Assembly: GCA_943736015.1 (NCBI GenBank)
Contig: OX031064.1
Coordinates: forward strand, 40,227,361 to 40,291,360
Length of the DNA stretch: 64,000 nt
Source of the DNA: Tridacna crocea
Taxonomy: Eukaryota; Mollusca; Bivalvia; Cardiida; Cardiidae
Reading direction: 5' to 3'
Shown one piece after another: positions 14,769 through 62,809 of this stretch (the first letter of the stretch is position 1; the number at the start of each line of letters is the position of its first letter). A program made the position numbers and the translations under genes. The notes beneath the pieces were generated by a model that did no database searches, was not told the DNA's origin, and was given only the letters and a program-made list of their open reading frames with translations.

Positions 14769-14989
14769 CCCATTACCACACAATCCCTACTTTTCACGAC
14801 ACTGAGAAAGAAGCCCTTAGAAAACATTGTGGGAAAAGGAGAAAATGCTGGTAACCAGCATTTTCTCCTTTTCCCACAATGTTTTCTACCCTTCACAAAA
14901 CAAATTTCAATTTTTCAGTCACTTTTATTTTGTCATCTGCAAATGCTTTTAATTTGGACAAGTCTAATATTTCGTCGTTTGGTTAATTG
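14769..14989 (+). mobile_element. Family A hairpin MITE, copy 7 (reference copy)
   Basis: Between TTAA 14765-14768 and TTAA 14990-14993, 221 bases. Starts CCCATTACCACACAATCC. The hairpin spans 14819-14887: two perfectly complementary 34-base arms around a single A. The right side carries TTTATTTTGTC and AATTTGGACAAGTCTA, present in nearly all copies. Confidence 0.95.
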
Positions 14990-18734: not shown

Positions 18735-19860
18735 ACAAGAGGGCTAAGATGGCCCTGGATCGCTGACCTGAATTTTTGAGAGGACCATAACCAATTCTTT
18801 TAGAGGTATTGAAACTTTGGAAACAAAATCATTCTTTTGCCAAGCAATTCTGGAAAGGACACCTGTAAAAGTCATTTCAAAATCTACCACTATCCCTACA
18901 ATCATCACCAGAGCAGTGATTTTGATGAATCAGAATTCTGCAAATAAATTTTTGGAAAGATCACCCAAGGACAATTTCTTGAAGAAGAGAATATGGTCAA
19001 AAGTGGCTAAAAACATAAGTTGAACAAGAGTACCACATGCAGGTGCCAACAGTTGGCTGTTGCTTTTCAAGGGATGAAAATTTCCCTACCATTTTTTTTA
19101 AAAGAGTCTGTGAAATTATTTCAAATCTGACCAGCCGTTCCAGAGAAGAAGAATTGAGATCCATTTTTCTAGATGGATCAAAATTTTGCAACCAGTTTTG
19201 AAAAGAATCACCCAAAGAACATCTCTTGGAAATTATTTCAAAATTTGACCAGCCGTTTCTGAGAGGAAGAATTTAAAGAATCTCTTCATATCTGCATAGT
19301 GCAGGTACGGGCCTAACCCCCAGTCACCAGAGCCAAGTTTCTTGACGGATCAAAATTTCATGAAAAAGTTTTGGAAAGGGTCACCCAAGGAACATTTCTG
19401 TGAAATTATTTAAAAATCTGACCTGCCATTCCAGAGAGGAAGATTTTTTAAGAATTTCATCATTTCCATAAAGTGCAAGTAGCCCCCATTCACCTGAGCC
19501 ATGTTTCTCGACGGATCAAAATTTCACGAACAATTCTGAAAAGGGTCACCAAAGGAACATTTCTGTGAAATTATTTCAAAATCTGACCAGCAGTTTTAGA
19601 GGAGAGGATTTTTAAAGAATTTCTTAGAAAAATCAATTTGAATGCCATGGCAACCAGAGTTTTTGATGGAATCAAACTCTGTGAACACTTTTCAAAGAGG
19701 ACCATCCAAAGAACATTCCAGCCAAGTTTGATCTTAATTGCCATAGCAGTGTAGGAGGTGAATTTGTTTAAAGAAAGTATTAATGATGTATGACGTACGA
19801 CAGATACAGAGTGATCCTAAAAGCTTCCCTTGAGCACATTGTGCTTATGGTGAGCGAAAA
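18735..19860. mobile_element. 166-bp-array element (Helitron-like), copy a
   Basis: Starts ACAAGAGGGCTAAGATGGCC. The core is made of diverged units with CCATTCCAGAGAGGAAG and GAGCCATGTTTCTTGAC-like motifs. The tail has GACGTACGACAGA and the cap CTTGAGCACATTGTGCTTA. Confidence 0.8.
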
Positions 19861-30800: not shown

Positions 30801-33800
30801 TATACAGTTTGATATAATTATGTTCTACAACATATACTTTGGTAAGAATTTCTGGACAAAAGGAATGTTGAAGCTGCAGATACTCTGCTCTACTACCCAG
30901 AATGAAAAAGAACTTGGTTCATTAACTCATTACCACACAATCCCGACTTTTGACAACCCCGAGAAAAAAGCCTTTTGAAAACATTGTGGGAAAAGGAGAA
31001 AATGCTGGTAACCAGCAATTTTTCCTTTTCCCAAAATGTTTTCTACCCTTCCCAAACCAATTTCAATTTTTCAGTCACATTTATTTTGTAGTCTGCAAAT
31101 ACTTTCAATTTGGACCAGTCTAAAATTTTCTCGTGTGGTAAAGAGTTAACCCTTTAGCCCATAAGGCATTTCTATGGTATCTCTTATTCTCTATGGTGTT
31201 TCTTATGTGTATATGACACCTTTTGATAGCATAAAAAAAACATTGTGGCAAAAGGTGAAATTGCTTGTCACAAGTAATTTCACCTTTAGCCACAATGTTT
31301 TTCATACGCTCCTACAAGCAATGCATAGAAATGAGTATCTATGGAGTGAAGGGTTAAACGCCTCATGCTTCCAATTCTTCCAATAATTTTCCTTTATGTA
31401 AATTCTGTCTGTCTGAGGTAAGCCAAAGCTATGGCTACGTACAACAAAATCATTGTACAGACTGGCTTTACTCTCAACCAGTAATCCAGAATTTTTACCA
31501 CCTTGAGGAAGAAGTCTTTTGAAAATATTCAGAGAAAAGGATAACATGCTCTTTTTCTCCTTTTCACACAATACTTTCAACCCTGTTACAGAAAAATTCC
31601 ATCCTCTGAGCTGTACAGTATTTAAATTGTTGCATGCAGATGCTGTGAATTTGGATAAGTCTATATTTCTGTGGTATGGTAAAAGGTTAAATCACACGTA
31701 AAACATTAAAATCTTCAGATTTTTTCCATCTTGCAATACACCACTTTTGAAAACATTGTGGCAAGAGTAATCTGTAATGAGAATTTTCTTAAATACATAT
31801 AGCACTGACAATTACTAATGCCATCTTTTAACTCTTAATGCAGATTATCTTTACTCTAAAATATGATTTATAAGTATGTCTGCTTCCAATGTGTTTGACT
31901 TTTTACCAAACAACAAACTTAAGACTTGTCCAATTCAAAAGCATTCAATGATGCCATACATAATTATATTAAAAGTCACTCAAATTATTAAGTTTTTTTT
32001 CTGAAAGGCTCGGAAACTTTTTAGGAAAAAGTGGAAATAATGGTTAAAGTAGAACAAAATAAAAGAAAAAATATGGAATGAAGAGCAAAAGAACGCAAGA
32101 GGGCAAAGATGGCCCTGGATCGCTCACATGAATTTTTGAGAGGACCATAGCCATTTTTAATCGGTCGGCTTCAAAGCCGAGCGATTAGAGAGATGGCAAA
32201 TTTCGGAAAGCCGTGAATTGAACGCAAACAAATGTAACTGCTACCAGTCACAACCCTCACTTACGACTTTTTAACGCCTCGCAGTTCGGTCGTGACCTTA
32301 TTACAAAAACTACTTTTTTGTCTAGGTGAGCGCGGGAACTGAGTGTGTAAAAAGTCTAAAACATAATCCGGATCTCAAACCATCTGCTGTTCAATAAATA
32401 GCGGTAAAGATCTGTTTATCATTTAATTGTTACTCTCAAGGCAACAGCCTGACATCTTGGTTCAATTAACTTTAAAAAAAAATGCTATATTGAATAAACA
32501 TGCGCAAGGATATCCGTCATTTGCTATGCAAATCAGAACAGGGTTTTCACACAACAATTCATGAGGAGCGCTTCTATGCAAAAAGGGAAAAATAGTCACG
32601 TGACATAAACAAGATTAGCGGATAACGAATCAGAACGTTTCCCAAGGGTATTCTCACAGTATATAAACGAACTGAACCTAGAGACAGCCGAGATAAAAAT
32701 TGCGTCTTTCATACTGCTGAATGTAAACTATGTGAATCTTTATGTATAGTTTATGCCACACCTGTATTGTTAATACATAAACTGCTACATAATCATTCTT
32801 AGCTTTAAAACATTGAAATTCTCAATACTCACCGCAGGCTACAGCGTCATTTGCAGTAGACCCGATCTTAAATCAGCTTTTATCATGTTAAGACTGGCTG
32901 AAACACGTTTTCTGAGTTTGAACCGGTGCAATTAATTAATTAGAAAAGATATTTGCGGCATTGGGCCTTTTAAAGTTCGATTTTGAACATAAAAAATAAG
33001 AATTAATGCCTCTATGTAAAGTAGGTCAACTGTACGTTTCTTGCTGGTGATTCGTACCCTTACTTGCGAGTTTACGAAATCTATCTGTACGACGTCTTTG
33101 GAGTTTTTTCAAATATTCTGTACGGTTCTTGGGATAACAAATCTGATGCCTGATGGTATAAATCTGTTCATTTTCATCTATAAAATGGAGTAATTCAGAT
33201 GCCTTTACAGCAAACTGTCAACCACAAGCTTTGGTGATATAATAAATCATAATTTGGAAATCCATAACGGAAAAACCTCAAGATCAAAATTTCAGAATTT
33301 GACTCACAAAGAAAAGAAACAATATCGTATGAAAAAAAAAACCTTCAAAAGTATTCCAAAAGATTTGAAGCTATGTAACAGGCCTCTGCTACCTAATGAT
33401 GATACTAAGACAGTGAGTTTCAAGGCTTGTTTATGTGTCACCATTTTTAAAAAAGCCACATAAAGAAAGACACCAGTGAGGGATGTTCACAAGTTCCTTG
33501 AAGAATCTGAATGTTTTATGCGAAATACTGTTTAATAGTGGTTATTCCTATTCCTCATAGAAATGAGTCATCAGTCAATCACTTAAGAAAATATTGTAAG
33601 AATTTGAGAAGAAATTACACTCAACGAACAATTTCTTCCTTTCTCGTAACATTTTCTATTCTTTTTCAAAATTATACTTTTATTAAGCAGATCTGTAAAT
33701 TTTCCCCTAAATTCTTCCAAATTGGATGAGTCCAAGATGCCGTATCGGGAAAGGGTAATTCCTCTTTTTATCTATTAGCAGATGAATCCCTCTTTTTATC

Positions 33801-36800
33801 TATTAGCAGATGAATATGAATTGTGAAATCTTATTGCATGAATTCGTTCTGTTCCTTAAAGGTGGGTATATAGGTTTTTCACATCACACAAAATTAAATA
33901 ATATATATATATCACTGAAATTTATATGAAAAAACAATACAAATTATCAATAATTAAGAATCATAATATTACAAAAAAATTGGGGGTGGTATTCCCTTAA
34001 AAGGCTGTGTTGCCCATTAGGCTATTTTTAGATTTCGCGCCAAAAAATAAAAAAAAAAACATCGTGGGAATGTTGATCATAAATAAGTGACTGGCATGTG
34101 ACTAATGACGCTTAAATTCCATAAGAAACATGTATTTATTTTCCATAATGTCTTTTTCGGACGCTATGTTTGAAGCTTCGTCTGTGTATTCTTAGTATGT
34201 AAATGAGCAAATTGTAAAAATAGACAGTGTGTTCCGTCGGTGTCGACCTGGGCTGTGGTAAATCTCTTATTTCTCTTGTCGGATGGTTTTCGACTACTGG
34301 GGTTTAATGAAAGAAAATTATACGGCTTTGGGAGTATAAAGATTTTGTATTTTTGTAAAATTTTTGTCCCAAAATCTGAAGGACCACCTGTAACGCATGA
34401 AAAGGAAGCAGAATAAAACCGAGTCTTTTTATACTATTACAGTATTACTGTATGTTTGGCTGCTTTTCTCTCAAAAATCCGATCTTCAGTGACTGTTTAC
34501 AGCCACAAGAGTAGATGTTCAATGACCTGTCACAGCTGTTACATATCTCCCCGTGTTTCATATTTGATCTTGTCTTTTATTCTGGTCCGCCTTGATCACC
34601 GATTTCAACACTAACTTATGGAATTAAATACAGCTCTACCCATACCCTTCTGTAATAAAAGAGCTGTGCAGTATACTCTGCATGAACTAAAGACGCACAT
34701 AAAATGTGACACATAGTCCTTGTGACTTGTAATCCTTCAACAAAACATACAACGAATGGTGTTCAGAAATGGCACTGATAACGACAAAAGAACAAAATCA
34801 TTGTTCCACTTTTATGATATAAAATAGCGTATTTCATATGTGGTGGTAATCGGATAAGGTTGTACACACGGTGGGTAGACGAGGGGTCGAATGGCTAGGT
34901 TAGAGATTATTCAGTGTCGACCGATTACAGTGCTGACAGCACTTTGATTTTTTTAGGTATTGAAACACTGGAAACAAAATCATTATTTTGCCAAAGAATT
35001 TCCAAAAGGTCACCTGTTTCTTAATTTCCGTACAGTGCATGTAGCCCCCATTCACCAGAGCCATGTTTCTTGACCCCTCAAAATTTTGTGAACAGTTTTT
35101 GAAAAGAGTCATTCAAGGAACATTTCTGTGAAATTGTTTTAAAATCTGACCAGCCGTTTCAGAGAAGAATAATTTTCAAGAATTTCTTCATGTCCATATA
35201 GTGCAAGTAGCCCCCATTCACCAGAGCAATGTTTCTTGACCTATCAAAATTTCGTGAACAAGTTTTGAAAAGAGTAATTTAAGAAACATTTTTGTGAAAT
35301 TATTTTAAAATCTGACAAGCCCTTTTAGAAAAGAAGAGTTTTCAAGAATTTCTTCATGTTCGTATATTGCAAGAGACCCCCTTTCACCAGAGGCATGTTT
35401 CTTGACAAATAAAAATTTCACGAAAATTTTTGAAAAGGGTGATCCAAGGAACATCTCTGTGAAATTATTTCAGAATCTGACAAACCGTTTCAGAGAAGAA
35501 AAATTTTCAAGAATTTCTTCATTTCTGTATAGTGCAAGTTGCCCCCCTTCACCAGAGCCATGTTTCTTGACCAATCAGAATTTCGCGAACAGTTTTTGAA
35601 AAGGGTCACCCAAGGAACATCTCTGTGAAATTATTTCAAAATCTGACAAGCTGTTTCAGAGAAGAAGAATTCTTAAAGAGGCCATAATACTCATTTTAAG
35701 CCAGTTTTAACTCTTTTTGTTTTTAATTTATGAAAATATAGTCATTCTTATATATCTGTGCCAAATATTGCGGCTGAAGGTTGCATGGTTGCTTAGATTA
35801 CACATGATAGAAAATGCAATTCGCGGACTTGCGGCCTTCAATGTAAACAGACTGGTCATTTCTGGATTTTGAATTGAAGATTTTCGATATCCATTATACA
35901 CTCTGGTAGATTTGGATGATGATCATGCATTCCGTAACCTGACTATATTTGATCTTGGCCTTGATGCGGTAAATAAAGGAAAATGGATGCTTCTATGTTG
36001 CAGCCTCTATTTTTAGAAGGAGATTGAGGCCTATATGTAAGTTACACCTTATCCGACTCTAGGCGGAAACCAACGATAAATTTCCGTGAGTCACCGCCAT
36101 TGTTTACAGCTTCGATTGTCAGTCAGTTTTCTTCTGGCCAATTTTCGGTTTTTCACACAAACCCCTGTGTTTCTTTTTTCATTTACACAATATATATCAG
36201 TAATTTATCCTTGTGCACACAAAGGACAGATTTCTGTACCATTCTATTTTTCTTTTTTAAATTTAACAGCGTTTCTGATCACCGGCTGTAGACAGGCATC
36301 TTTAAGAATTTCTTCATTTCTGTATAGTGCAAGTAGCCCGCATTCACCAGAGCCATGTTTCTTGACAGATCAAAATATTGCAATCACTTTTTGAAAAGGG
36401 TCACCCAAGGAACATCTCTGTGAAAATATTTCAAAATCTAGCCAGCGGTTTCAGAGAAGAAGATTTTTAAAGAATTTCTTAAAAAAATCCATTTGGTTGC
36501 CATGGTAACCAGAGTTTTTGATGGAATCAAATTCTGTGAACAAGTTTTAAAGAGGACCTCCCAAGGAACATTCCAGGCAAGCTTGGTCCAAATTGGCCAC
36601 AGCGGTTTAGGAGGAGTTGATGTTTAAAAATTGTTGACGACAGACGACAAACGACACACGACGGACATCAGGTGATCCTAAAAGTTCCCCTTGTGCTCAG
36701 GTGAGCTAAAAATCAGATCAAGCAGGGATTTAAAGTTTGTCTTAACCCTTTACAAAACAATCCTAAGTTTTACCAACCCTGAGAATAAAGGCTTTTGTAG

Positions 36801-39800
36801 GGGAAAATAGAAAAAATGCCAGTAACCAGCATTTCTCCTTTACCCAAAGCAGGAACATATAAACAGATATCAAAATACAAAGAAATTAGTTAAAGGTCTG
36901 AAGATAATTACAAAAGCTAAGATAGCATGGCTACAATGTACATGGAAACTAAAGTCTTGTCAGTGCATGTCATACCGAGTTCGTCATTATTTGTCATCAG
37001 CGGGTCGGAAGCGCAAGGATTTTCATCATCATCTTCAAAATCACAACTCTCCCAATCACCTGGCGGTAAACAAAAAAGCAAACTATTAACTATTTACCAC
37101 ACACATAAAAAAATTGAACTTGTCCCAATCCCAGGCTCCTGCTGACAACAAATTTAATATGGTTCAAACAGCAGGATTTGTCTCATAAATTGTAGAAAAT
37201 ACTCTGCAAAAAAGAGAAAATTCTGGTTACTAGCATTTTCTCCTTTTTTCAAACGATGTTTTAAAAAAAAAAAACATCTTTTTCAAAGCTGTTAAAAGTC
37301 AGGATTGCGTGGTAAAGGTATAAGCAAAAAAGAAATTAACCAAAAAACCAATAACTCTAAAAACTCTACCACTTTTCTGTCTGATGTTGTACTATGGAAA
37401 AAGAAACAATCGCAACTAGCAACTATTTCTTTTCCAACAATGATTTCAAAAAATAATTTAACCTTCTCAGGGTCCAAAGATTCCACTGGTCAGCTCATCC
37501 TTACAAGTAAAAATTTCGTGAGAGCAAGTGGATTATTCTTCTTTGTTTAACAGTAGGACGAGTGCAAAATGGCAGGACAAGTAAGAGTCAGAAATTTTTT
37601 GGACCCTGCTTCTTTCAAAAATTTCTCCTTTGAGTTATTTTCACTTTATGATAGTTTTCCCAAAATTAGCCTGTATGGTAATTGGTTACAACAGGAATAT
37701 TTCAGTAAGCCAAAAAAACAGTGGCTGGTCAAGGGCAATAACAAGAAAAATCGAAATTATACATGTATACAATCTGACATAAGTTAGGAAGAGAGGTAAA
37801 ATTGTGTTAACCCTTTACTCCACAGATACTCATTTCTACGCATTGCTTGTATGAGCCTTTGGAAAACATTGTGGCAAAAAGTGAAATTGCTCGTCACGAG
37901 CAATTTCACCTTTTGCCACAATGTTTTCTACACTATCAAAAGGTGCCATATACATATAAGAAACGGCTTCATCCTTGCTGTTATTTAGGGTCAATTAGAG
38001 ATACCATAGAAATGCCTTATGGGGTAAAGGGTTAACTCTTTACCAAACAACAGAATTGTCATCCTTGTTGACCCAGTTTCGATTTATACTGTAATCGACC
38101 CTGGGTTATTTGGCTGGCGTTTTCTCATTCTCACGAATTATTCATGCAGCATTTTGATTGGTAATCTCTGGGTTTTTTTTGAGAAAATTCAAACTATTTT
38201 TATCACAAATATGCCTTCATTTCTTTTTTTAGTAACTGACAAAATGAAATTGCTCTCCCTACAAGAGAGAATGAAATATGTTATCGATCTTTTGATTGGC
38301 TATTTGGGTACTTTCCGATCATATGAATATTCATGTAAAATGAAGATTTGCTGGTCAATTTTCCCAGGGGTAATGCATGGCGTGTAACATAATGCTTAGC
38401 CCATTACCACACAATCCCTACTTTTGACGCCCCTTTGAAAGAAGCCAACAGAAAACATTGTGGGAAAAGGAGAAAATGCTGGTAACCAGCATTTTCTCCT
38501 TTTCCCACAATGTTTTCTACCCTTCACAAAACAAATTTCAAATTTTCAGTCACATATATTTTTTCGTCTGCAAATGCTTTCGATTTGGACAAGCCTAAAA
38601 TATTGTCGTTTGGTAATGAGTTAAACCTGGGTTACAAGGATGAAAAATTGTAGACCGATCTAAATTAAAAGTATTTGCAGATGACAACCCAAGTATGGCT
38701 CAAAAATTGAAATTTGTCTTGGGAAGCGTAGATAACATTGTGGGAAAAGGAGGAAATGCTGGTTACCAGCATTTTCTCCTTTTCCTACAATGTTTTCAAA
38801 AGGCATCTTTCTAAGGGTTGTTAAAAGTTAGGATTGTGTGGTAAAGAAATAAACAAGACTTAAAAAATGTTATTTATTGAGTCTCCAAGGAGCTTAATAA
38901 CATTTTTTTTAAGCCAATCTATATCAAACTTTTACCTAAAAAGCCAACCAATGTCAGGTTCCTTTTATCACTTAAATTATGATTTACTAATTCAATATTA
39001 GTTGTTTTCATGAACATCGGTGAATTCTGATTGGCTGAAATCTTTTTTTCACAGCTCCATGAAAAAAAAATTTCAGCAGTGCTTGGACTACTTCTGCAGT
39101 CAAAGTAATGTAAACAAACATGTATGCAAGATTTCATAATGCTTTTCTTTCTGATTTTAGATCCCTATTGAGTCTAAAGTTCAAATTGCTAGCTGAATTT
39201 ATTTTTTCTAAATATTGAAAAAATATCCAACAGTAAATTCAATGAGAGAGCTGAAAACTCAATGTCACTTTGCTGGGCTCAATAAATCTTATTTTCAACT
39301 TAGTTCTAGCGAATTGAACTTCTAATAATAAATCCACTTTAACTGCAAAATTTAATGTTCAATACTACAAGACGTCACAAATTTATGTCATTGTTACATC
39401 ATGAACCAGCAGTTTTACTGTGCTATGAATTATGAGTGAAATGGACATTAAATAAATACGCAATGTTGGATTTTCAATGAAAAAAAACCAGTTAGTATTA
39501 TTCAAGTGCGTATTAAAAAATTTTGTTGTCTGTGATATTGATTTATAAAAGAATGAAGAGAATGTTTTTTGTTTTCATGGAGGTATGAAAAAAAAAACCT
39601 AATCATACTACAGTGTGATTAGGTTTTTTTTCATTCCTCCATGAAAACAAAAAGAAAAATCTCTTCATACCTTTATTAAATCAGAAGTTGCAGGTCAGAA
39701 AATATAAAAGAATACATGGACATGTAGTTTCCATGGATAAAACCTTGGTATATGAGGACATGACCGTTATAATTATGACATCTCACAACACTTTCATCTC

Positions 39801-48800: not shown

Positions 48801-51800
48801 TGCATCAAAAAGAATGGTAAAAATCTACCTGTAGAAATTAAAAGAAAGAGAATCATTGAGATCTGAAGTGACTAAAAAGAATGTTGAAGATTGTTGAGAA
48901 AAAGTTGAGGGAAAAGGAGCTATAATAGTACTGCAGTCATCTATGTTATAAACATTTCTTAATTAAACTTCCCTCAGTGCTTTTGCCAAGCCCCAGTAGC
49001 CCAGTTGGTGGCAAAAAAGACTTGAGAAAAGATGACTTCACTGGTTTTAGCCAAATTCCATCTAAGGATTGATTAAGCATTAATTCATTCCTCTCTCACA
49101 AATAACCATTGTTTCAATGATATGTGGGAAAGCAGTGGATAGAATATCGTGGGGAGTACATGTATTTGTAAAAGAAAACGTGGGAAAGCATGGACAGCAG
49201 TACTGGCCTCTGCAATATCACTGATAAAAAGGTTAAGAAAGTGTTAATCACAAAAATACCTATACACTCAATGCTTTTAGAAATCTGTCAACCTTTTGTG
49301 GGGTTTTATATCATGAGTCAGATTTGTGTCATGTTCTCAATAATAAATTACCTTTTAAAATTTCCATTAACCCATAACCACACAATCCCTACTTTTGATA
49401 CCCCTGAGAAAGAAGCCTTTGGAAAACATTGTGGGAAAAGGAGAAAATGCTGGTAACCAGCATTTTCTCCTTTTCCCACAATGTTTTCTACCCTTCACAA
49501 AACAATTTTCAAACTTTAGTCATTTTTATTTTGTTGTCTGCAAATGCTTTCAATTTGGACCAGTCTAAAATATTGTCGTTTGGTAATGGGTTAACCACCT
49601 GTTACCACACAAGAGGATCATGACTGCCCTGGATCGCTCACCTATGCTAGCCTTGTCATATGACAGAGAATACTCAAAAGTTAATTTTAAGGTAGTAAGT
49701 ACCTTCCTAATGGAAAACAGTTATTTCCACTGTGATATTATCCTACAAAATTTGCTACATTGTATGTTTAAAAATGACTATCATTGTACTACTTTAACCA
49801 AGCCACTTATTCCTTTGATCATTCCTATGATCTCATTAGAAAAAGGAGATAATAATTATCTCCCTTTTCAGAAAAAAAACAAAAGTATCAACAAATAAGT
49901 AAAGATAGACATTAAAATAATTTCATGTCAGTTAGAAATGTGTAATTTTTAAGTATTATATCAGTATAAATCCTTCTCCATCAACTAATAGGAAACTTTA
50001 TTACATGTTGCACTAGAAGAGTTTGGATGGTAATACCTTAGCCCTTTACCATTATTCCATACAATCTTTAGTTCACATAACCTGACAGAGTAGGTTTTTG
50101 AAATTTTTTTGGAAATGGAGAATATGCAGGTAACCAGCCCACAATAACTTTTATCTTTTTCATATATCCATCATGTCAGCCACATTAACTGTGTTGTCTG
50201 GAAATGCTTTAACCCTTTACCAAATAATCCCTGGTTTTCATGGCCCTGAAAAAGGAGCCTTTAGAAAACATTGTGGGAAAAGAAAGAAATGCTGGTAAAC
50301 AGCATTTTCTCCTTTTCCCACAATGTTTTCTACCCTCTCAGGAACAAATTTTAATTTTTGAATAATGTTAATTTTGTCGTCTTCAAATGCTTTCAATTTG
50401 CACCAGTTTATAGATTTGTCGTTTGGTAAAGAGTTAAATTGGGAAATGTCAAAAATATGGTTGTCTGGTAAAGGCTAAACCTTTACAACTTCCCTGAGAA
50501 ATAAAGTGTTTGAAAACATCTTGGGAAAAAGGCAGAAATACTGGCTACTAGCATTTTCTTTTTCCTTTTTCCACAGTGTTGTTCACAGCCAAATCTCATA
50601 ATTCCAGCCAACCTGAAATGTCATCTGCTTTTGCTGTTCAATTTGGAAAAGTCAAAAAAAAATTTGTTTGATAAAATCTAAATTATAAATGAAGATATTA
50701 TCTAGACCAATATTCAGCTGATACTTCATTAACATTGTATATAAAACACGACTGATTGACAAAATAGTTTTAAATGTAACATATAACATTAATTTAGTAA
50801 TGTTTTGCCAGCCAGCACACCTATCTATGCTTTCCTAGAATTTCCTTTAGCAGTACTCTGCAAAATTTTCTCCCCAAACCACTGACTGCTTTCCCACATA
50901 ACCATCAAATGTCAAAACATTGGTCAACAACAAAAAAAGATACAACATATGACATTCAACTCTTTTTACCTTAAGTTCCAAAACCCTAGACTTGTCCATT
51001 TTGAAGGCAAAGTGTTTGTAGATGACAAAAAATGTGAGGTTAAAATGATGGAACTGGATAGGAAAGAAAATATTGTGGGGAAAAAAAAAAACATGACGAT
51101 CAACATTTCCTCCAATTCAAATGCTGTTTTAAAAATCCGTTTTCTTTTTCCTGTCTTTTGAATATGTATTTGTTTTGTGGAAGGTGAAATAAAACACTCC
51201 ACTCTTCTTTTTTTATGGGTATATGAGACCTTTCAATAGCATAGAAAACATTGTGACAAAAGGTGAAATTGCTCATCAAGAGCAATTTCAACTTTTGCCA
51301 CAATGTTTTCCAAAGCTCCTACAAGCAATGCATAGAAATGAGTATCTATGGAGTAAAGGGTTAAAAGTGGTTGGAAAGTTCAAGAGAAAAATTGAAAAAT
51401 TTGAAATGATAAAAATAGGATTGCACAACATTGCATTTTCTGTACAGTCCTGATCTTGATCTACATGTACATAGCTAGCCAAAGCTGTGACTTAAATTTG
51501 CCTAAATCATTTGAAAATTTCATAATTTTGTCCCAAGATACTCTACCTTTGCAATGAAGACTGCTATCACAGCTGTGGCCAGTTCTGGTGCTGAGCTCCC
51601 TGCAGCCATAAAAGTGGCACCAGCAACATCTGGTTGTATACGTAACACTGAAAATACATAATGTCTGTCTACTTTATTGTAATGAATGAGTAACTGCATG
51701 TACCTACTTTGTAGTAAGGGCTTCACCAGTAAAGTCTGTAAATCTGGATTTAGCAGTTATGTTAATAAGCTCTGATAGGTCTTTTCTGGCACCTAGAGCT

Positions 51801-60800: not shown

Positions 60801-62552
60801 TAAAATGGCGTTTACTATTTTACCAAACAACAAAATTATAGACTGGTTGAAATTGAAAACGTTTGCAGACGACAAAATAATTGTGACTGAAAAGTTGAAA
60901 TTTGGTTTGGGACGCCCCAGTAGAAGACATTGTCATAACAAGAGGGCCAAGATGGCCCTGGATCGCTCACCTGAATTTTTGAGATGACCATAGTCTTTTT
61001 TTTTTTTTTTTTGAGGTAATGAAACATTGGAACCAAATTTATAATTTTGCCAAGCAATTTTCAAAAGGTCACCTGTAAAAGTCATTTCGAAATCTGACCA
61101 TCAGTTTCAAAAAGAAGAATTTTTAAGAATTCTTCATTTCTGTATAAGAGCAAGTAGCCCCCATCCACAAGAGCCATGTTTCTTGACGGATCAAAATTAT
61201 ATTTACAGCTTTTGAAAACGGTCACTCAAGGAACATCTCTGGCAGATTATTTTAAAATCTGACAACAGGTTTCAGAGAAGAAGAATTTTCAAGAATTTCT
61301 TCATTTCCATATAGTGCAAGTAGCCCCCATTCACTAGAGCCATGTTTCTTGGCCAATCAAAATTTCGCAAACAATTTTAGAAAACGATCACCCAAGGAAC
61401 ATCTCTGTGAAATTATTTCAAAATCTATCCAGCCATTTCAGAGAAGAAGAATTTTCAAGAATTTCTTCATTTCTGTATAGTGCAAGTAACCCCCATTCAC
61501 CAGAGCCATGTTTCTTGACCAATCAAAATTTCGCGAACAATTTTTGAAAAGGGTCACTCAAGGAACAACTCTGTGAAATTATTTCAAAATCTAACAAGCT
61601 GTTTCAGAGAAGAAGAATTTTTAAGAATTTCTTCATTTCTGTATAGTGCAAGAAGCCCCCATTCACCAGAGCCATGTTTCTTGACCAATTAAAATTTCGC
61701 GAACAATTTTTGAAAAGGGTCACCCAAGGAGCAACTCTGTGAAATTATTTCAAAATCTGACAAGCGGTTTCAGAGAAGAAAATTTTTTAAGAATTCCTTC
61801 ATTTCTGTATAGTGCAAGTAGCCCCCATTCACCAGAGCCACATTTTTTGACAGATCAAAATTTCACGAACAATTTTTGAAAAGGGTCACCCAAGGAATAT
61901 ATCTGTGAAATTATTTCAAAATCCAACCAGCGGTTTCAGAGGAGAAGATTTTTAAAGAATTTGCTAAAAAATTCCATTTGGTTGCCATGGCAACCAGAGT
62001 TTTTGATGGAATCAAATTCTGTGAACAATTTTTAAAGAGGACCTCCCAAGGAACATTCTTGCCAAGTTTGGTCCAAATCCACCCAACGGTTTAGGAGGAG
62101 TTGATGTTCAAAGAATTGTTGACGACACACGACGGACGACGGATGACGCACGACGGACGACGGACACCGGGTGATCCTAAAAGCTCCCCTTGAGCACATT
62201 GTGCTCAGGTGAGCTAAAAAGAGATAATGCTGGTTTTCAAAAGCTGTTTTCCACAAGGTTGTTTAAATGTAGGACTCTCTGGTAGGGGGTTAACCTGACA
62301 AACAGGAAAACATCGCCCAACTACACTCACCTTCAGAAATGACCTCCAGGGATGGCACAAAATAATCATCACAGAGAACTCCAAAACCCAGAAACATGTA
62401 AATAGTGACAAAGACATGTAAAATAAGGGCTCCTTTTTTTCGTTGTTCAGTAGTAAAAATGTCACGGGGAAATTGTTCCACTGCTCGTGGTGTGCAATTT
62501 GGCATATTTTCTGACACAGCCAGTATCTTCCGGGGCCTGTACGTTTCAAATT
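27680..62552 (-). CDS. SLC24A5-like: K+-dependent Na+/Ca2+ exchanger, NCKX5-like, 9 coding exons, 5' end missing
   Basis: Spliced coding sequence, read on the minus strand: 62552-62331, 51647-51547, 47324-47238, 45531-45431, 42015-41801, 37059-36976, 30317-30096, 29329-29099, 27879-27680. All introns are GT..AG, the phases join without a break, and the sum is 486 residues plus stop (vertebrate NCKX5 is about 500). Members of this family exchange Na+ for Ca2+ plus K+ across a membrane. Both alpha repeats are present: alpha-1 with GSSAPEL (exons 3-4) and alpha-2 with GVSLPD and GSNVFD (exon 9). An acidic loop containing FEDDDE lies in exon 7. The pairing of SLEVISE, LFRDC, VYWYE and a C-terminal YELNIFG resembles NCKX5 more than NCKX1-4, by eye only. 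The N-terminal exon with signal peptide and ATG was not found. An invertebrate NCKX branch outside the vertebrate subfamilies is the main alternative. Confidence 0.93.
28240..28810. repeat. Two diverged dispersed repeats within intron 9
   Basis: 28240-28530 has repeated GGCAGCCCTGTGTCTTATGG and GGTAGCCCTATGCCTTATGG units. 28600-28815 ends with CATCGGGCCATGACATAAGC, a segment also found at 53640-53720. Confidence 0.5.
29099..29329 (-). CDS. SLC24A5-like: NCKX exon 9: alpha-2 repeat
   Basis: Acceptor GTTGCAG, donor GTAGG; 231 bases, residues 345-420. It encodes YTVGIADTIMGLTF, AFGVSLPDVISS, GDMAVSNAVGSNVFDIL and a helix ending VPWLLQTI. The Asp in SLPD and the Asp in NVFD correspond to residues needed for cation and K+ handling in NCKX2 (Asp548 and Asp575 there). 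The usual AAGTS is AFGVS here. Confidence 0.96.
29404..29662. mobile_element. Mutator-like MITE, copy 1 (259 bp, 9-bp target duplication)
   Basis: Starts CATCCTCGGATACCC and ends GGGTATCCGAGGATG, with long imperfect inverted arms of about 60 bases. TAAATTCTG flanks both sides (29395-29403 and 29663-29671). A copy of identical length is at 46567-46825. A 9-base duplication with long inverted ends fits the Mutator superfamily; the family assignment is an inference. Confidence 0.88.
29672..29996 (+). mobile_element. Family A MITE, degenerate
   Basis: Keeps parts of both arms (GGGAAAAGAGGAAAG, TGGCTTTTCCCACA) and the flank AAATGCTTTAAATTTGGACG. An extra stretch lies in the right part. Confidence 0.6.
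30096..30317 (-). CDS. SLC24A5-like: NCKX exon 8: two helices before alpha-2
   Basis: Acceptor TTCACAG, donor GTAAGCAG; 222 bases, residues 271-343. It begins ADIEKPQSAFTCP, then WVLALPLKFVFFISIPDCR, then RWRNYFIVTFIMS and a helix ending VWMITII. The PDCR and YLMVWM motifs precede the alpha-2 repeat in NCKX proteins. The upstream open frame continuing past the donor is intron. Confidence 0.95.
30376..30616 (+). mobile_element. Family A hairpin MITE
   Basis: Starts after TTAA (30372-30375) with CCCTTTACCAAACAATC. Heart CACTGGTTAACTGCA; the right end is diverged. Confidence 0.75.
30926..31145 (+). mobile_element. Family A hairpin MITE adjoining a family B copy
   Basis: Between TTAA 30922-30925 and TTAA 31146-31149; ends GTGTGGTAAAGAG. 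The second TTAA is also the left border of the family B element at 31150. Confidence 0.92.
31150..31353 (-). mobile_element. Family B hairpin MITE, copy 1
   Basis: Between TTAA 31146-31149 and TTAA 31354-31357. Ends CCCTTTAGCCCATAAGGC and TATGGAGTGAAGGG. The heart GAAATTGCTTGTCACAAG differs from family A, but the outer arm (AACATTGTGG) is the same. Confidence 0.88.
31470..31686 (+). mobile_element. Family A MITE, right hairpin arm shortened
   Basis: ACCTTGAGGAAGAAGTCTTTTG, a left arm to CATGCTC, then directly TTTTTCTCCTTTTCACACA. Ends GGTATGGTAAAAGG before TTAA (31687-31690). Confidence 0.75.
32093..32160. mobile_element. 166-bp-array element, 5' fragment
   Basis: CGCAAGAGGGCAAAGATGGC through GAGAGGACCATAGCC, then it stops abruptly at about 32158 where unrelated sequence (TCGGTCGGCTTCAAAGCCGA, itself a small hairpin) begins. 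Confidence 0.75.
32160..34900. other. Intron 7 DNA, mostly unrecognised
   Basis: No exon matching the exchanger was found. A very degraded family A trace lies at 33580-33740 (TTTCTTCCTTTCTCGTAAC, then AAATTGGATGAGTCC). A 26-base direct repeat (CCTCTTTTTATCTATTAGCAG) is at 33760-33812. TA microsatellite at 33900-33910. Confidence 0.45.
34940..36712. mobile_element. 166-bp-array element, copy d, 5' truncated and interrupted
   Basis: Begins inside the element at TTTTTTTAGGTATTGAAACA. Core units at ~34950-35676 and 36300-36480 are separated by a TTAA-flanked insertion. It ends with GACGACAAACGACACACGAC and the shortened cap CCTTGTGCTCAGGTGAGC. Confidence 0.82.
35677..36301. mobile_element. TTAA-flanked insertion inside copy d
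   Basis: TTAA at 35673-35676 and 36302-36305 flanks a 625-base segment that breaks one core unit. Its ends are AGAGGCCATAAT and GACAGGCATCT (inverted AGATGCCTG), a short imperfect match. Kolobok or another TTAA-targeting family is possible. Two overlapping open frames near 36090-36390 have no recognisable domain. Confidence 0.65.
36747..36848 (+). mobile_element. Family A fragment (left half and hairpin)
   Basis: Starts after TTAA (36743-36746) with CCCTTTACAAAACAATCC. Heart GCCAGTAACCAGC; it is lost after TTTACCCAAAG. Confidence 0.7.
36976..37059 (-). CDS. SLC24A5-like: NCKX exon 7: acidic cytoplasmic loop
   Basis: Acceptor CGCCAG, donor GTATGA; 84 bases with 2 leading bases, 27 codons and 1 trailing base. 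It encodes residues 243-269, including DWESCDFEDDDENP. The exon has no conserved core motif, but its phases fit exons 6 and 8 exactly and an acidic loop is expected at this point. It could be alternatively spliced; skipping it keeps the frame. Confidence 0.8.
37089..37321 (-). mobile_element. Family A hairpin MITE, degenerate
   Basis: Starts near CTATTTACCACACA; AACTTGTCCCAATC and GCTGACAACAAATTT mark the reverse flank. Heart TTCTGGTTACTAGC; ends TTGCGTGGTAAAGG. Confidence 0.7.
37811..38031 (+). mobile_element. Family B hairpin MITE, copy 2
   Basis: Between TTAA 37807-37810 and TTAA 38032-38035. Ends CCCTTTACTCCACAG and ATGGGGTAAAGGG. The heart GAAATTGCTCGTCACGAGC is fully paired, and the arms have a single mismatch. 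The right TTAA is also the left border of the next family A copy. Confidence 0.93.
38060..38642. mobile_element. Mutator-like element with CATCCTTGTTGACCCAG ends
   Basis: Starts CATCCTTGTTGACCCAG and ends CTGGGTTACAAGGATG. Flanking 9-mers CAGAATTGT (38051-38059) and AAAAATTGT (38643-38651) agree at 7 of 9 positions. The first bases match the termini of the 259-bp element. It carries a family A copy inside. Confidence 0.78.
38400..38620 (+). mobile_element. Family A hairpin MITE nested inside the Mutator-like element
   Basis: Starts CCCATTACCACACAATCC after TTAG (mutated TTAA, 38396-38399) and ends TTTGGTAATGAG before TTAA (38621-38624). Hairpin core intact. Confidence 0.92.
38860..39700. repeat. 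Intron repeat with a long inverted repeat at 39555-39660
   Basis: TTTTTGTTTTCATGGAGGTATG with a following CCTAATCA pairs with TGATTAGG and CATTCCTCCATGAAAACAAA about ten bases further on. A half-copy (TTTTGTTTTCATGGAGGTAT) is at 15015-15035. The segment at 38870-38960 (AAGCCAACCAATGTCAGGTT) has counterparts at ~23155-23195 and ~63440-63490. Confidence 0.65.
39898..39953. repeat. Palindromic repeat of the 4917 family
   Basis: TGTAGATAAGGATCAGACT and AGTCTAGTCTAGATCTACT are partly complementary. A half-copy follows at about 40035-40075. Confidence 0.55.
40515..40676 (-). mobile_element. Family A hairpin MITE, left end lost
   Basis: Hairpin at about 40558-40622 with heart GCTGGTAATCAGC; ends CTATGTGGTAAAGAG before TTAA (40677-40680). 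Confidence 0.75.
40759..40792. repeat. ACAT microsatellite
   Basis: Eight consecutive ATAC/ACAT units. Open frames on both strands run through it and are artefacts. Confidence 0.95.
40829..41010. repeat. Two opposed tRNA-like SINE pieces
   Basis: 40829-40915 read on minus gives TAGCTCACTGTTTATAATGT and GGATTCGAAC-like A and B boxes. 40920-41005 on plus gives TGCTCAATGGTTATGGTGTT and TGGTTCAAATCCCACCAGG. Both resemble degraded tRNA heads. The opposed pieces are followed by a microsatellite. Confidence 0.5.
41057..41121. repeat. ACAT microsatellite, interrupted
   Basis: ACAT units interrupted near CATACCGGTACATAC. Confidence 0.95.
41173..41392 (-). mobile_element. Family A hairpin MITE
   Basis: Between TTAA 41169-41172 and TTAA 41393-41396, 220 bases. 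Starts CTCATTACCAAACGAC and ends TGAGTGGTAATGGG. Central base T; one arm has CCACTTCC in place of CCTTTTCC. Confidence 0.93.
41476..41680 (+). mobile_element. Family A MITE, diverged
   Basis: Starts CTGTTTACCATGTTGTCC; arms diverged around GGTGGTTACCAGC; ends GGCTGTGTGATATAGAG. It ends about 120 bases from the donor side of exon 6. Confidence 0.7.
41801..42015 (-). CDS. SLC24A5-like: NCKX exon 6: membrane helix and start of cytoplasmic loop
   Basis: Acceptor TTTCCAG, donor GTAGG; 215 bases, residues 171-241. A hydrophobic helix (SFIVLYSLYILLMYY) is followed by IVPKFTCC with paired cysteines and then a polar segment with SENGSTMQTNG, which starts the large cytoplasmic loop. Loop sequence is poorly conserved between NCKX paralogues and gives little help in assigning the subfamily. 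Confidence 0.92.
42584..43920. mobile_element. 166-bp-array element, copy e
   Basis: Complete: AACAAGAGGGCCAAGATGGC start; core units with GAGCCATGTTTCTTGAC at ~42788, 43108, 43401 and 43564, with diverged ones between; GTTGCCATGGCAACCAGAG segment; ACGACGGAC tail; cap CTTGAGCATGTTGTGCTCAG. An open frame of 119 codons here reads through repeat units only. Confidence 0.88.
44045..44175 (+). mobile_element. Family A fragment inside the hAT-like element
   Basis: Left flank and hairpin remain (AAAAACATTGTGGAAAAAGG, heart GCTGGTAGCCAGC); the right part is missing. Confidence 0.7.
45431..45531 (-). CDS. SLC24A5-like: NCKX exon 5: membrane helix after alpha-1
   Basis: Acceptor GACAG, donor GTAAGT; 33 codons plus two bases that join exon 6 as a Trp codon (residues 137-169). 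It encodes VVPLNWWPLFRDC, a hydrophobic run and MDEEVY. The LFRDC and VYWYE signatures, the latter crossing the junction, are typical of NCKX proteins. Confidence 0.94.
45559..45768 (+). mobile_element. Family A hairpin MITE near exon 5
   Basis: Starts CCCTTCAACACACAATC. Heart GCTGGTAATCAGT, outer arm changed to GGAAACATTCATGG with its partner CCCTGAATGTTTTC. Begins about 28 bases upstream of exon 5, on the acceptor side. Confidence 0.78.
46554..47041 (+). mobile_element. Family A MITE split by the Mutator-like MITE
   Basis: TTAA 46550-46553 and 47042-47045. The first 13 bases (to 46566) and the rest (from 46826) form one copy, with the 9-mer TTACCACAC duplicated around the inserted element. 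Hairpin at ~46872-46938. Confidence 0.93.
46567..46825. mobile_element. Mutator-like MITE, copy 2 (259 bp)
   Basis: Starts CATCCTCGGATACCCC and ends GGGGTATCCAAGGATA; target duplication TTACCACAC (46558-46566 and 46826-46834). Same length as the copy at 29404 and nearly the same sequence. Confidence 0.92.
47238..47324 (-). CDS. SLC24A5-like: NCKX exon 4: end of alpha-1 repeat
   Basis: Acceptor GTCAACAG, donor GTAAG; exactly 29 codons (residues 108-136), phase 0 at both ends. It encodes DDIGVGTVVGSAVYN followed by a hydrophobic helix ending FAGM. GTVVGSAVYN matches the second half of the alpha-1 repeat across the family. Confidence 0.95.
47415..47475. repeat. Hairpin repeat, CAGGTCAGCCTG family, partial
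   Basis: CTCTGTGAAAAAGGGGCTTA followed by ATCAGGTCAGCCTGTTC. The inverted partner arm seen at 7375 is missing. Confidence 0.55.
47985..48192 (-). repeat. tRNA-derived SINE
   Basis: Read on minus it begins with a tRNA-like head (ATGGCTGAATGGTAAAGTG as A box, GTCCAGAGTTCTAGCC as degenerate B box) and continues into the ATATCATGACAACAGCACA body shared with 11455-11600. Confidence 0.6.
48222..48232. repeat. Poly-G run
   Basis: Ten or more consecutive G residues within intron 3. Confidence 0.85.
48240..49360. other. Intron 3 DNA without recognised feature
   Basis: No exon-like or matching repeat sequence beyond short arm-like traces (GTGGGAAAGCA at about 49121 and 49170). Confidence 0.4.
49371..49590 (+). 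mobile_element. Family A hairpin MITE
   Basis: Between TTAA 49367-49370 and TTAA 49591-49594. Starts CCCATAACCACACAATCC and ends TTTGGTAATGGG; hairpin arms intact. Confidence 0.95.
49607..49645. mobile_element. Scrap of a 166-bp-array element
   Basis: CACAAGAGGATCATGACTGC and CTGGATCGCTCACCT only. Confidence 0.55.
50041..50475 (+). mobile_element. Family A MITE, degenerate, containing another family A copy
   Basis: Left part 50041-50208 and right part 50438-50475 (ATTGGGAAATGTCAAAAATA, then TGTCTGGTAAAGG). The inserted copy at 50213-50433 sits in a TTAA that arose by one base change in GCTTTCAATTTGG. Confidence 0.85.
50213..50433 (+). mobile_element. Family A hairpin MITE nested in a family A copy
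   Basis: TTAA 50209-50212 and 50434-50437, 221 bases; CCCTTTACCAAATAATCC to TTTGGTAAAGAG. Removing it with one TTAA restores the host copy without gap. Confidence 0.95.
50476..50690 (+). mobile_element. Family A MITE, degenerate
   Basis: ACCTTTACAACTTCCCTGAG, diverged arms with heart ACTGGCTACTAGC, and right flank TTCAATTTGGAAAAGTC. Confidence 0.65.
50960..51140 (-). mobile_element. Family A MITE, degenerate
   Basis: CTAGACTTGTCCATTTTGAAGG and TGTAGATGACAAAAAATGTGA match the reverse flank; the hairpin is largely lost. Confidence 0.55.
51200..51360 (-). mobile_element. Family B hairpin MITE, copy 3, one end lost
   Basis: Heart GAAATTGCTCATCAAGAGC, right end AATGAGTATCTATGGAGTAAAGGG before TTAA (51361-51364). 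It lies about 185 bases downstream of exon 3. Confidence 0.85.
51547..51647 (-). CDS. SLC24A5-like: NCKX exon 3: alpha-1 repeat core
   Basis: Acceptor TTTTCAG, donor GTAGAG; 101 bases. With the base left over from exon 2 it completes a Val codon, then encodes residues 75-107, including DVAGATFMAAGSSAPELAT. The Glu in SAPEL is the acidic residue that binds cation in characterised NCKX proteins. The frame passes into exon 4 with no split codon. Confidence 0.95.
51881..52084. repeat. Palindromic MITE, ATTCACCAACCATTCTT ends, copy 3
   Basis: GTCTGTATTCCCCAACCATT to AAGAATGGATGGTGAATA. The middle is a clear hairpin (TTGGCTAAACC with GGTTCAGCCAA). It lies about 230 bases upstream of exon 3. Confidence 0.8.
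52153..52357 (+). mobile_element. Family A MITE, right hairpin arm mostly deleted
   Basis: Heart GCTGGTAACCAGC is followed by only seven bases of right arm before TGTCTACCC. Ends TGTTTGGTAAAAAG before TTAA (52358-52361). Confidence 0.85.
52595..52705. repeat. Hairpin repeat, CAGGTCAGCCTG family
   Basis: GCTCTGTGAAACCTGGGCTT and GTCTGCCCAGGCTGACCTG, as at 7375, with TCAGCAAGTGCAG as the diverged partner arm. Confidence 0.6.
52739..52960 (+). mobile_element. Family A hairpin MITE
   Basis: Starts TTCTCCACCACACAATCC after TTAA (52735-52738). Arms nearly intact, ends TATGGTAAAGAG. Confidence 0.88.
53196..53470. mobile_element. Family A fragments, very degraded
   Basis: TTTATCAAACAATCC, TTGTTACAATGTTTTCTAG and AAAACATTGTGAGAAGAGG are recognisable pieces. 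Confidence 0.5.
53560..53725. repeat. Dispersed repeat, end shared with 28600-28815
   Basis: GGGCCAAGATCGTTTCTGTG through CCAGGCCATGACATAAGC. Confidence 0.5.
53933..54155 (+). mobile_element. Family A hairpin MITE
   Basis: TTAA 53929-53932, then CTCTGTACCACACAATCCC; arms with a few mismatches; ends CGTTTGGTAAAG. Confidence 0.88.
54919..55139 (+). mobile_element. Family A hairpin MITE
   Basis: Between TTAA 54915-54918 and TTAA 55140-55143. Starts CCCATTACCACACAACCCC and ends TTTGGTAATGGG; the heart has one change (GCTGTTAACCAGC). Confidence 0.94.
55488..55552. repeat. Palindromic repeat of the 4917 family, best copy
   Basis: ATGTAGATCAAAGATCAGACTG and CAGTCTGATCTTTGATCTACA pair perfectly around a short CACGATGTG centre. 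Confidence 0.85.
55618..55710 (-). repeat. tRNA-like SINE head
   Basis: On minus: TAGCTCAGAGGTTATGGTGT (A box) and TAGGTTCAAATCCTCTGCCC (B box). The acceptor stem does not pair, so a functional tRNA is unlikely. Confidence 0.55.
55905..57372. mobile_element. 156-bp-array element with CCCCCGC/GCGGGGG ends, with an internal duplication
   Basis: Starts GATATCCCCCGCCGAAA; a first end TTTCAGCGGGGGATA lies near 56872-56887 and a second, TTTTCAGCAGGGGATAA, at 57354-57370. GGGCAATAACTC recurs at 56052, 56208, 56362, 56518 and 56675, a period of 154-157 bases. A GGACGGAAGGACGG tract precedes each end. Between the ends, TTAGGAATTGCAGG with its following bases is duplicated (56894 and 56988). Open frames here are repeat units. 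Confidence 0.85.
57422..57640 (-). mobile_element. Family A hairpin MITE
   Basis: TTAA 57418-57421, then CTCTTTACCGAACGGC; heart changed to CTTGTTACCGTTT; ends TTGTGCGGTAAAG. Confidence 0.85.
57650..58010. other. Intron 2 DNA without recognised feature
   Basis: No exon or matching repeat seen. Confidence 0.4.
58017..58235 (-). mobile_element. Family A hairpin MITE
   Basis: TTAA 58013-58016 and 58236-58239. Starts TCTTTACCGAACGACA and ends GCGTGGTAAAGAG; arms nearly perfect, central base T. Confidence 0.94.
58530..59060. repeat. Dispersed SINE-like repeat with GAAT microsatellite
   Basis: A GAAT run at 58548-58572 precedes GTGTTTTATGGCCCGTCGAC. TCGCCTTTTACGACATGC at about 58719 and TCGCCTTCTACGACATGCC at about 58975 are two units of the same motif. 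Ends GCCCCGGGACCCCACGGGG. It sits within a split family A copy: the flanks at 58500-58545 and 59050-59115 match its two sides. Confidence 0.6.
59165..59314 (-). mobile_element. Family A MITE, left flank lost
   Basis: Hairpin heart GCTAGTTAAAAGC; ends TTGTGTGGTACAAAC at the TTAA 59315-59318, shared with the next copy. Confidence 0.75.
59319..59503 (-). mobile_element. Family A MITE with the right hairpin arm deleted from its centre
   Basis: Starts CCCATTACCAAATGAC. The left arm reaches ATGCTGGTA and then jumps to TCAAAGGCTTCTTTC; the right arm is missing. Confidence 0.85.
59639..59858 (-). mobile_element. Family A hairpin MITE
   Basis: TTAA 59635-59638 and 59859-59862. Starts CTCTTTACCAAACAAC; the right arm is shortened; ends TGTATGGTAAGGGA. 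Confidence 0.85.
59863..60346 (-). mobile_element. Family A MITE split by a SINE
   Basis: Shares TTAA 59859-59862 with its left neighbour. Interrupted at 59913-60180, resumes at AAAGCATTTATAGACGACAA, hairpin at ~60255-60325. It stops at the internal GAATTG/TTAA where the next copy begins. Confidence 0.88.
59913..60180 (-). repeat. tRNA-derived SINE with 10-bp target duplication
   Basis: AAAGCATTTA is repeated on both sides (59903-59912 and 60181-60190). On minus, the head has GGTGGCTCAGTGGTGAGCG (A box) and AAGTTCGATACCCGG (B box); the 3' end is CAATACAACCAACCAATG. A 75-codon open frame on plus is an artefact. Confidence 0.88.
60351..60440 (+). mobile_element. Family A MITE cut off at the hairpin centre
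   Basis: Starts at TTAA 60347-60350 with CCCTTTACCACACGATC, keeps the full left arm and GCTGGTTACCAG, then turns into unrelated sequence. Confidence 0.85.
60450..60577 (+). repeat. SINE fragment related to 59913-60180
   Basis: AGAAAGTAGTCAGTGACTTGG and CACTGACCACCGTGATAAGAC are complementary to parts of the SINE body; no tRNA head. Confidence 0.6.
60582..60799 (-). mobile_element. Family A hairpin MITE
   Basis: TTAA 60578-60581 and 60800-60803. Heart GCTGTTTACCAGC; ends TTGTGTGGTGATGGG. Confidence 0.9.
60811..62289 (-). mobile_element. Family A MITE split by a 166-bp-array element
   Basis: Left part to ~60935 (AAGACATTGTCAT) and right part from ~62219 (GAGATAATGCTGG, then TTTTCCACAAGGTTGTTTAAAT), ending TCTGGTAGGGGG before TTAA (62290-62293). 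The break lies in the left hairpin arm. It ends about 37 bases downstream of exon 2. Confidence 0.85.
60938..62218. mobile_element. 166-bp-array element, copy g (most regular array)
   Basis: AACAAGAGGGCCAAGATGGC start. GAGCCATGTTTCTTG (last unit GAGCCACATTTTTTG) recurs at 61171, 61337, 61503, 61669 and 61835, exactly 166 bases apart each time. GTTGCCATGGCAACC, an ACGACGGACGACGG tail and the cap TTGAGCACATTGTGCTCA with GGTGAGCTAA follow. The hairpin before CTAA and the tandem core resemble non-autonomous Helitron-like (pearl/HINE) elements of bivalves; this is an inference, since no Rep/helicase is present. Confidence 0.9.
62331..62552 (-). CDS. SLC24A5-like: NCKX exon 2 (first exon visible): extracellular segment and TM1
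   Basis: Acceptor TTTTCAG before 62552 and donor GTGAG after 62331. The 222 bases carry 2 leading bases, 73 codons and 1 trailing base. It encodes a cysteine-containing segment (NCTPRAVEQFPRD), a TEQRKKGA stretch, a hydrophobic helix, and VLCDDYFVPSLEVISE. The CDDYFVPSLE motif begins the alpha-1 region throughout the NCKX family. Numbering from its first complete codon, this is residues 1-73. A second open frame over the same bases is a shadow. Confidence 0.92.
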
Positions 62553-62589
62553 CTGAAAATTGAACAAAAAAAGTTTCAAATTGCTGTAA

Positions 62590-62809
62590 CTCTTTCCCAA
62601 ACAAGCCCTGGTTTTTTCATGTCTGCAGTACAAGTATTCAGAAAACACTGTGGGAAAAGGAGAAATTGCTCGTAACGAGCAATTTCTCCTTTTCCCACAA
62701 TGTTTTCTAGCCTATCAGAAAACTTTCTGCCATTCTCAACAAATTCAAAGTCGTCATCTACAAACACTTTCAGTTTGGGACAGTCTAAATTTTGTCATTT
62801 GGGAAAGGG
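62590..62809 (+). mobile_element. Family C hairpin MITE
   Basis: Starts CTCTTTCCCAAACAAGCCC and ends TTTGGGAAAGGG before TTAA (62810-62813). It has the family A outer arm with a family B-like heart (GAAATTGCTCGTAACGAGC), nearly perfectly paired. It begins about 37 bases upstream of exon 2, so exon 2 has such an element on both sides. Confidence 0.9.

Follow-up and report, generated by a model that had tools for sequence, protein, structure and literature searches.

Miniature inverted-repeat transposable elements (MITEs) are usually thought to need little beyond their ends, and in palindromic MITEs such as human MADE1 the palindrome is formed by the terminal repeats. We analysed a stretch of 64,000 nucleotides from the bivalve Tridacna crocea (contig OX031064.1 of assembly GCA_943736015.1, positions 40,227,361 to 40,291,360 of the forward strand), here called the window, in which hairpins of three subfamilies, A, B and C, had been noticed. 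It was found that these hairpins are the centre of a mobile element of about 229 bp flanked by TTAA. Like MADE1, the element carries its hairpin in many copies, but its palindrome begins 51 nt inside the element. With piggyBac-type MITEs it shares TTAA on both sides, short inverted ends starting with CCC or CTC, a length of about 229 bp with both TTAA and a high copy number; it differs from them in having a conserved central palindrome of 67 nt that is separate from the ends, and flanks that are much less conserved. Helitrons with their 3' hairpins and bacterial REPINs are likewise hairpin-bearing mobile DNA, both without TTAA duplications and paired inverted ends; Helitrons make no target duplication and have the hairpin close to the 3' end. 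A Helitron was ruled out here by the TTAA on both sides and by the position of the hairpin, which lies 106–108 nt from the right end when TTAA is counted. Hairpins homogenised by template switching, as described in two reports (PMC8794818, PMC8604942), likewise have perfect stems and paired changes; our case differs from them in that the resident copies show little genome-wide paired excess. In titles and the openings of abstracts, subscription papers and preprints aside, we found no treatment of a TTAA MITE whose internal palindrome has undergone paired changes.

The consensuses of A, B and C are 228–229 bp long including both TTAA, with a constant layout of 55 nt, the 67-nt palindrome and 106–108 nt. 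The palindromic core consists of two 33-nt arms around a single centre base. End-to-end alignment succeeded for 37 of 40 B, 35 of 38 C and 45 of 63 A1 copies, and of these 34, 28 and 23, respectively, had TTAA on both sides. The terminal inverted repeats are short and begin with CCC, or with CTC at a single A end and a single C end (consensus ends: A, CCCATTACC/GGTAATGAG; B, CCCTTTACT/GGTAAAGGG; C, CTCTTTCCC/GGGAAAGGG); CATTACC can be read off the consensus at both ends of A, and CTTTCCC at both ends of C. Because TTAA flanks, short inverted ends and this layout are the anatomy of piggyBac-type MITEs, the hairpins are, judged by sequence, the palindrome inside a non-autonomous DNA transposon of this type that targets TTAA. 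The genome contains 118 matches to the piggyBac transposase domain DDE_Tnp_1_7, fragments included, and 14 control genomes contain none. Many of these matches lie in stop-free frames and some form identically scoring sets, which suggests recent activity of the putative transposases. No sign of a phage origin was seen, the A copy having no match in the phage collection.

To compare the cores, we used a set of 437 cores from the window and 90 fetched loci, of which 421 were retained after 16 duplicate segments had been dropped. The loci had been picked by likeness to three window copies, and are hence young; the seeds were chosen by likeness and by the reader who made the original prediction. 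That prediction held that base changes between the hairpins of A, B and C occur on both arms so that pairing is kept, and the sequences proved to be as described. The arms of all three consensuses form perfect 33-bp palindromes (arm of A, GAAAACATTGTGGGAAAAGGAGAAAATGCTGGT). The B consensus arms depart from those of A at 4 of 33 pairs (14, 21, 26 and 31) and the C arms at 3 of 33 (8, 26 and 31), and every one of these differences is paired. With random placement in the arms, the chance of eight changed bases forming four complementary partner pairs is 9e-8, and that of six changed bases forming three partner pairs is 2e-6. When copies were clustered by their flanks only, with the core masked, all eight clusters of at least four copies (359 of the 421 copies) had perfectly palindromic core consensuses, one column of one cluster having a support of only 0.5; the core was of type A in six clusters, B in one and C in one. 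Similarly, the commonest exact cores among the 347 gap-free of the 437 cores were without mismatch (32 A, 14 B with centre G, 6 C).

The prediction had also described a change in the arm of B with a correspondingly changed partner. The paired differences are real, although CACCTTTTGCC and GGCAAAAAGTG do not match each other exactly, since pair 19 is unpaired in the window B copy (37880 A, 37910 C). In the window C copy, pair 8 is unpaired (62648 C, 62700 A), and in the C consensus this pair is formed. The prediction further held that C combines the outer arm of A with the heart of B. Such a combination does exist in what we call type E (by flank the two copies L045 and L054, by core alone four copies), whose arm is that of A except for changes at pairs 26 and 31, so that an outer arm of A encloses the heart of B and C. 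The outer arm of C is not simply that of A, however, because the C consensus has a paired change at pair 8, and on sequence an origin of C by combining A and B would be neither required nor excluded.

Between subfamilies, the flanks have diverged far more than the core. Core identity among A, B, C and E (E being one copy) was 58–63 of 67 positions, or 87–94%. Identity of the inner 3' flank was 0.49–0.53 in the five comparisons that involve B or E (shuffled, 0.46–0.48) and 0.68 between A and C (shuffled, 0.48); that of the inner 5' flank was 0.51–0.66 between subfamilies (shuffled, 0.41–0.47).

A tree was then built from the flanks only (291 of the 421 copies, 160 columns). On the terminal branches of the best flank tree, 38 changes were paired, 818 broke a pair and 26 restored one; in clades of at least five copies, 11 were paired and 1 broke a pair. 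Recounted at 9:1, the clade contrast gave a Fisher value of 2e-11. In 12 bootstrap trees the terminal ratio was steady (34–44 paired to 818–862 breaking), and 11 of the 12 again placed the changes of pairs 14 and 21 on the stem of B and that of pair 8 on the stem of C. Pairs 26 and 31 changed on the B/E stem and again on the C stem of the best flank tree, so that the B/C heart either arose twice or was exchanged between lineages. Branches of 3–4 copies were left out of the argument. An apparent segmental duplication bearing the same copies (C13, 8.07–8.64 Mb, loci L048–L051) may explain some of the pair-breaking changes on these branches; the screen for segmental duplicates is noisy, since adjacent copies have flanks in common.

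Variants shared by several copies were also examined. In A1, the ratio of distinct variants seen once to those in more than three copies was 60:4 in the core and 83:45 in the flanks (p 7e-6). Our earlier Fisher values had counted cells, with an inherited change entered once per copy at non-CpG sites, and not events. At non-CpG sites, the numbers of singletons per site in core and flanks were 0.0156 and 0.0123 in A1, 0.0113 and 0.0162 in C, and 0.0068 and 0.0174 in B.

The copies resident in the genome behave differently. Filters were passed by 382 of the 421 copies, 307 of them A, and in these A copies we counted 1,544 one-sided and 102 paired changes. Thus unpaired intermediates, which under the original prediction should have been rarer than paired ones, exceeded them many times over. 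Independent mutation of the arms would give 46.8 paired changes, a yardstick that is too low because old copies carry more of every change. A single genome-wide control was therefore used, the double hits at two non-partner positions, of which 277 were observed against 100.2 expected (factor 2.77). At pair 29, with 11,120 one-sided states genome-wide, there were 327 paired double hits compared with 294 by this control (1.11 ± 0.09). At pair 26, with 5,234 one-sided states and pair 31 unchanged, there were 121 compared with 65 (1.86 ± 0.20). Among the 248 A copies free of gaps, double changes at partner positions occurred at 2.25 times independence and non-partner ones at 1.56 times; without pairs 8, 10, 14, 26 and 31 the partner value was 2.03, and 88 of the 150 partner double changes were complementary. 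The paired excess in resident copies is modest at most, and resident hairpins are therefore not being kept copy by copy. The suggestion that covariation reflects maintenance of the fold is thus supported only for the multiplying lineages, by the paired-only differences between consensuses, the conservation of the core above that of the flanks and the A1 variants, and is not supported for resident copies.

The explanation we favour, with a probability of about 0.43, is that copies with a symmetric core are selected for during propagation. This dyad-symmetric core would act in cis while the element propagates, most likely either read as two half-sites by a DNA-binding protein or extruded as a hairpin. 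The protein option is favoured because the sequence is conserved beyond pairing, and the likeness of the ends in A and in C fits sites read twice by one protein. Selection would operate when a copy is mobilised, not during its residence in the genome, and the copies becoming source elements would tend toward a symmetric core. A one-sided change might be tolerated for a time, and in lineages that act as sources it would last mainly where the other arm followed. If this is true, the internal palindrome would be a third cis-acting site, deciding which copies multiply. On a wider proposition, which we regard as doubtful, a TTAA MITE numbering several hundred thousand to about a million copies would rely on an internal module of dyad symmetry. 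Selection during propagation would act on the sequence of this module as well as on its symmetry, matched changes in the two arms would drive its evolution between subfamilies, and it would outlast wide divergence in the rest of the element.

Several observations weigh against selection of the core during propagation. The 11:1 ratio in clades is fragile, because two of the 11 paired changes come from pair 14 changing and then reverting. In the 12 bootstrap trees, branches with at least five copies on each side had 3–8 paired and 3–12 pair-breaking changes, a ratio still well above the terminal one. The B/E and C stems were dropped in a recount because the reader had chosen them for being paired, and this left two paired changes and one unpaired (p 0.006). 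Only in A1 are shared variants clearly depleted in the core: the ratio of distinct variants seen once to those in more than three copies was 29:3 in the core and 67:22 in the flanks of C (p 0.08, having been 2e-5 by cells), and 17:2 and 73:8 in B (p 1.0), the copies of which were selected by likeness. Some unpaired states are shared, namely those at pair 19 (6 of 40 copies) and pair 13 (5 of 40) in B and at pair 8 in C (6 of 38), to which can be added pair 32 in C (4 of 38) and five states in A1 (each in 4–7 of 63), and no paired variant common to at least two copies was found within B, C or A1. If the shared states reflect descent rather than recurrence, a single mismatch would not stop propagation. 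The inner 5' flanks, like the core, exceed shuffled identity, the 90 loci were selected for their resemblance to window copies, and neither a binding protein nor a transcript nor an autonomous element was found.

An unlikely alternative is that a replication template switch in the hairpin copies one arm to the other, so that pairing arises in one event and without selection. Template switching can create and maintain hairpins and homogenise the arms of repeats, according to the two reports cited above. The partner excess in the 248 A copies, with its 88 complementary double changes, and the raised value at pair 26 would fit such copying, as would the centre base of B: in exact, clearly oriented B hearts it was C instead of G in 6 of the 7 changed copies, as expected of a flipped spacer, though some or all of these may have one origin. 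Pair 29, however, is without a clear excess, and converted copies amount to at most about 1% of the one-sided ones, so that the copying of one arm from the other, the second option of the original prediction, is at best a rare event in place. Several copies in B and in C also have unpaired states in common. Over all tree copies, the centre base seemed at first to flip to its complement in excess (A to T in 21 of 34 and G to C in 4 of 5 changes), but in A this excess was gone once exact, clearly oriented hearts were counted, with a margin above 50 bits taken as clear orientation: the 13 changed bases were T in 5, G in 5, C in 2 and a gap in 1 (T, p 0.47). The first signal came from decayed cores, in which centre or orientation is less sure (examples in the window are 26808, 27001, 30460 and 59775).

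It is less probable still that the pattern has no function, A, B and C being a few historical source copies that were symmetric by chance and of which the reader spotted the paired ones. The subfamilies are defined by only about five distinct paired changes, the decay of resident copies is mostly one-sided, and the restriction of a clear core depletion to A1 and the hand-picked seeds fit this explanation; the low chance probabilities of the A–B and A–C patterns and the far greater divergence of the flanks than of the core, while the layout stayed constant, argue against it. Equally improbable is an RNA hairpin, in which read-through transcripts would fold into a 33-bp hairpin giving small RNAs or protecting the element: the predicted folds of -47 to -55 kcal/mol were matched by 0 of 200 shuffles each, but every perfect palindrome folds well, so that stability is uninformative about use, conservation extends to the sequence and not to pairing alone, and the window had no match to Rfam families at gathering scores.

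The exact A heart (ATGCTGGT-N-ACCAGCAT) occurs at 290,542 sites in the 1.0488-Gb genome and the exact heart of B, C and E (TTGCTCGT-N-ACGAGCAA) at 32,780, which gives a family of at least 323,322 exact-heart sites. With so many sites in one genome, selection on symmetric sites can be told apart from homogenisation by template switching with unusual statistical power. An exact heart was present in 14 of 49 window cores compared with 189 of 388 locus cores, and scaling by these shares puts the total, very roughly, at 0.7–1.1 million copies.

In favour of selection of the core, intermediate hearts are few: half-and-half (cis-mixed) hearts are found at 37 sites genome-wide and hearts with only pair 26 changed on both arms at 121, compared with the far more numerous exact hearts of A and of B/C. 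Of the 37, 20 were inspected by eye. Two of them, each of 261 bp, are apparent chimeras with the switch at the centre of the palindrome: in L095 the left half is of B/E type and the right half of A type, and in L106 a left arm of B type meets a right flank of A type. The heart in L107 has B-type flanks and that in L108 gave no alignment; the remaining ones looked A-type or could not be classified, many having scattered changes. At another locus (L018, around 112), part of the arm of a C-type core occurs a second time after the core, which suggests a rearrangement within the palindrome.

The copies described in the window are listed in Table 1. There are 49 recognisable cores between 9.5 and 62.7 kb at E<=1e-3, the weakest of them poor, with 12 exact A hearts and 2 exact B/C hearts. 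The density of A hearts is 0.19 per kb (12 in 64 kb) compared with 0.28 per kb in the genome, and the element density of the window is not unusual; elements cover 17.9% of it at E<=1e-5. Repeat finding in the window returned families of 34 copies (93-nt reference), 46 copies (45 nt) and 12 copies (234 nt). The B copy had 3,161 first-look candidates in the genome, and its 40 scored matches were 96–100% identical across 227–229 of 229 bases.

Table 1. Copies and cores of the TTAA element in the window
Feature	Coordinates	Strand	Remarks
A copy (query)	14769..14989	+	TTAA on both sides
A palindromic core	14820..14886	.	perfect 33-nt arms; centre 14853; predicted RNA fold -54.8 kcal/mol, z -16
B-type core, more diverged copy	31236..31302	-	orientation by flank score
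B copy of the TTAA element	37811..38031	+	TTAA at 37807-37810 and 38032-38035; from sequence
B palindromic core	37862..37928	.	33-nt arms; centre base 37895; predicted RNA fold -47.2 kcal/mol
B core, paired differences from A	37875/37915, 37882/37908, 37887/37903, 37892/37898		pairs 14, 21, 26 and 31, respectively
A core, perfect	38451..38517	+	core search
A core, perfect	49422..49488	+	core search
B-type core, more diverged copy	51244..51310	-	orientation by flank score
C copy	62590..62809	+	left target site GTAA 62586-62589, right TTAA 62810-62813
C palindromic core	62641..62707	.	centre 62674; differs from A at pairs 26 and 31, both paired; predicted RNA fold -50.3 kcal/mol

No tRNA genes were found within the window. 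Other repeats were noted there as well. A tandem repeat of 164–166 bp forms four similar arrays (19157-19623, 35017-35679, 43225-43693 and 61084-61962) of 2.8–5.3 copies apiece with 78–89% matches, and related units occur also elsewhere. An inverted repeat at 10303-11018 has 220-nt arms that are 91% complementary and spaced by 276 nt, with short tandem units within. Finally, a tandem array of 4.9 copies of 156 bp (56047-56810) is followed by a 91-bp tandem duplication (56879-57060), the two having words in common.

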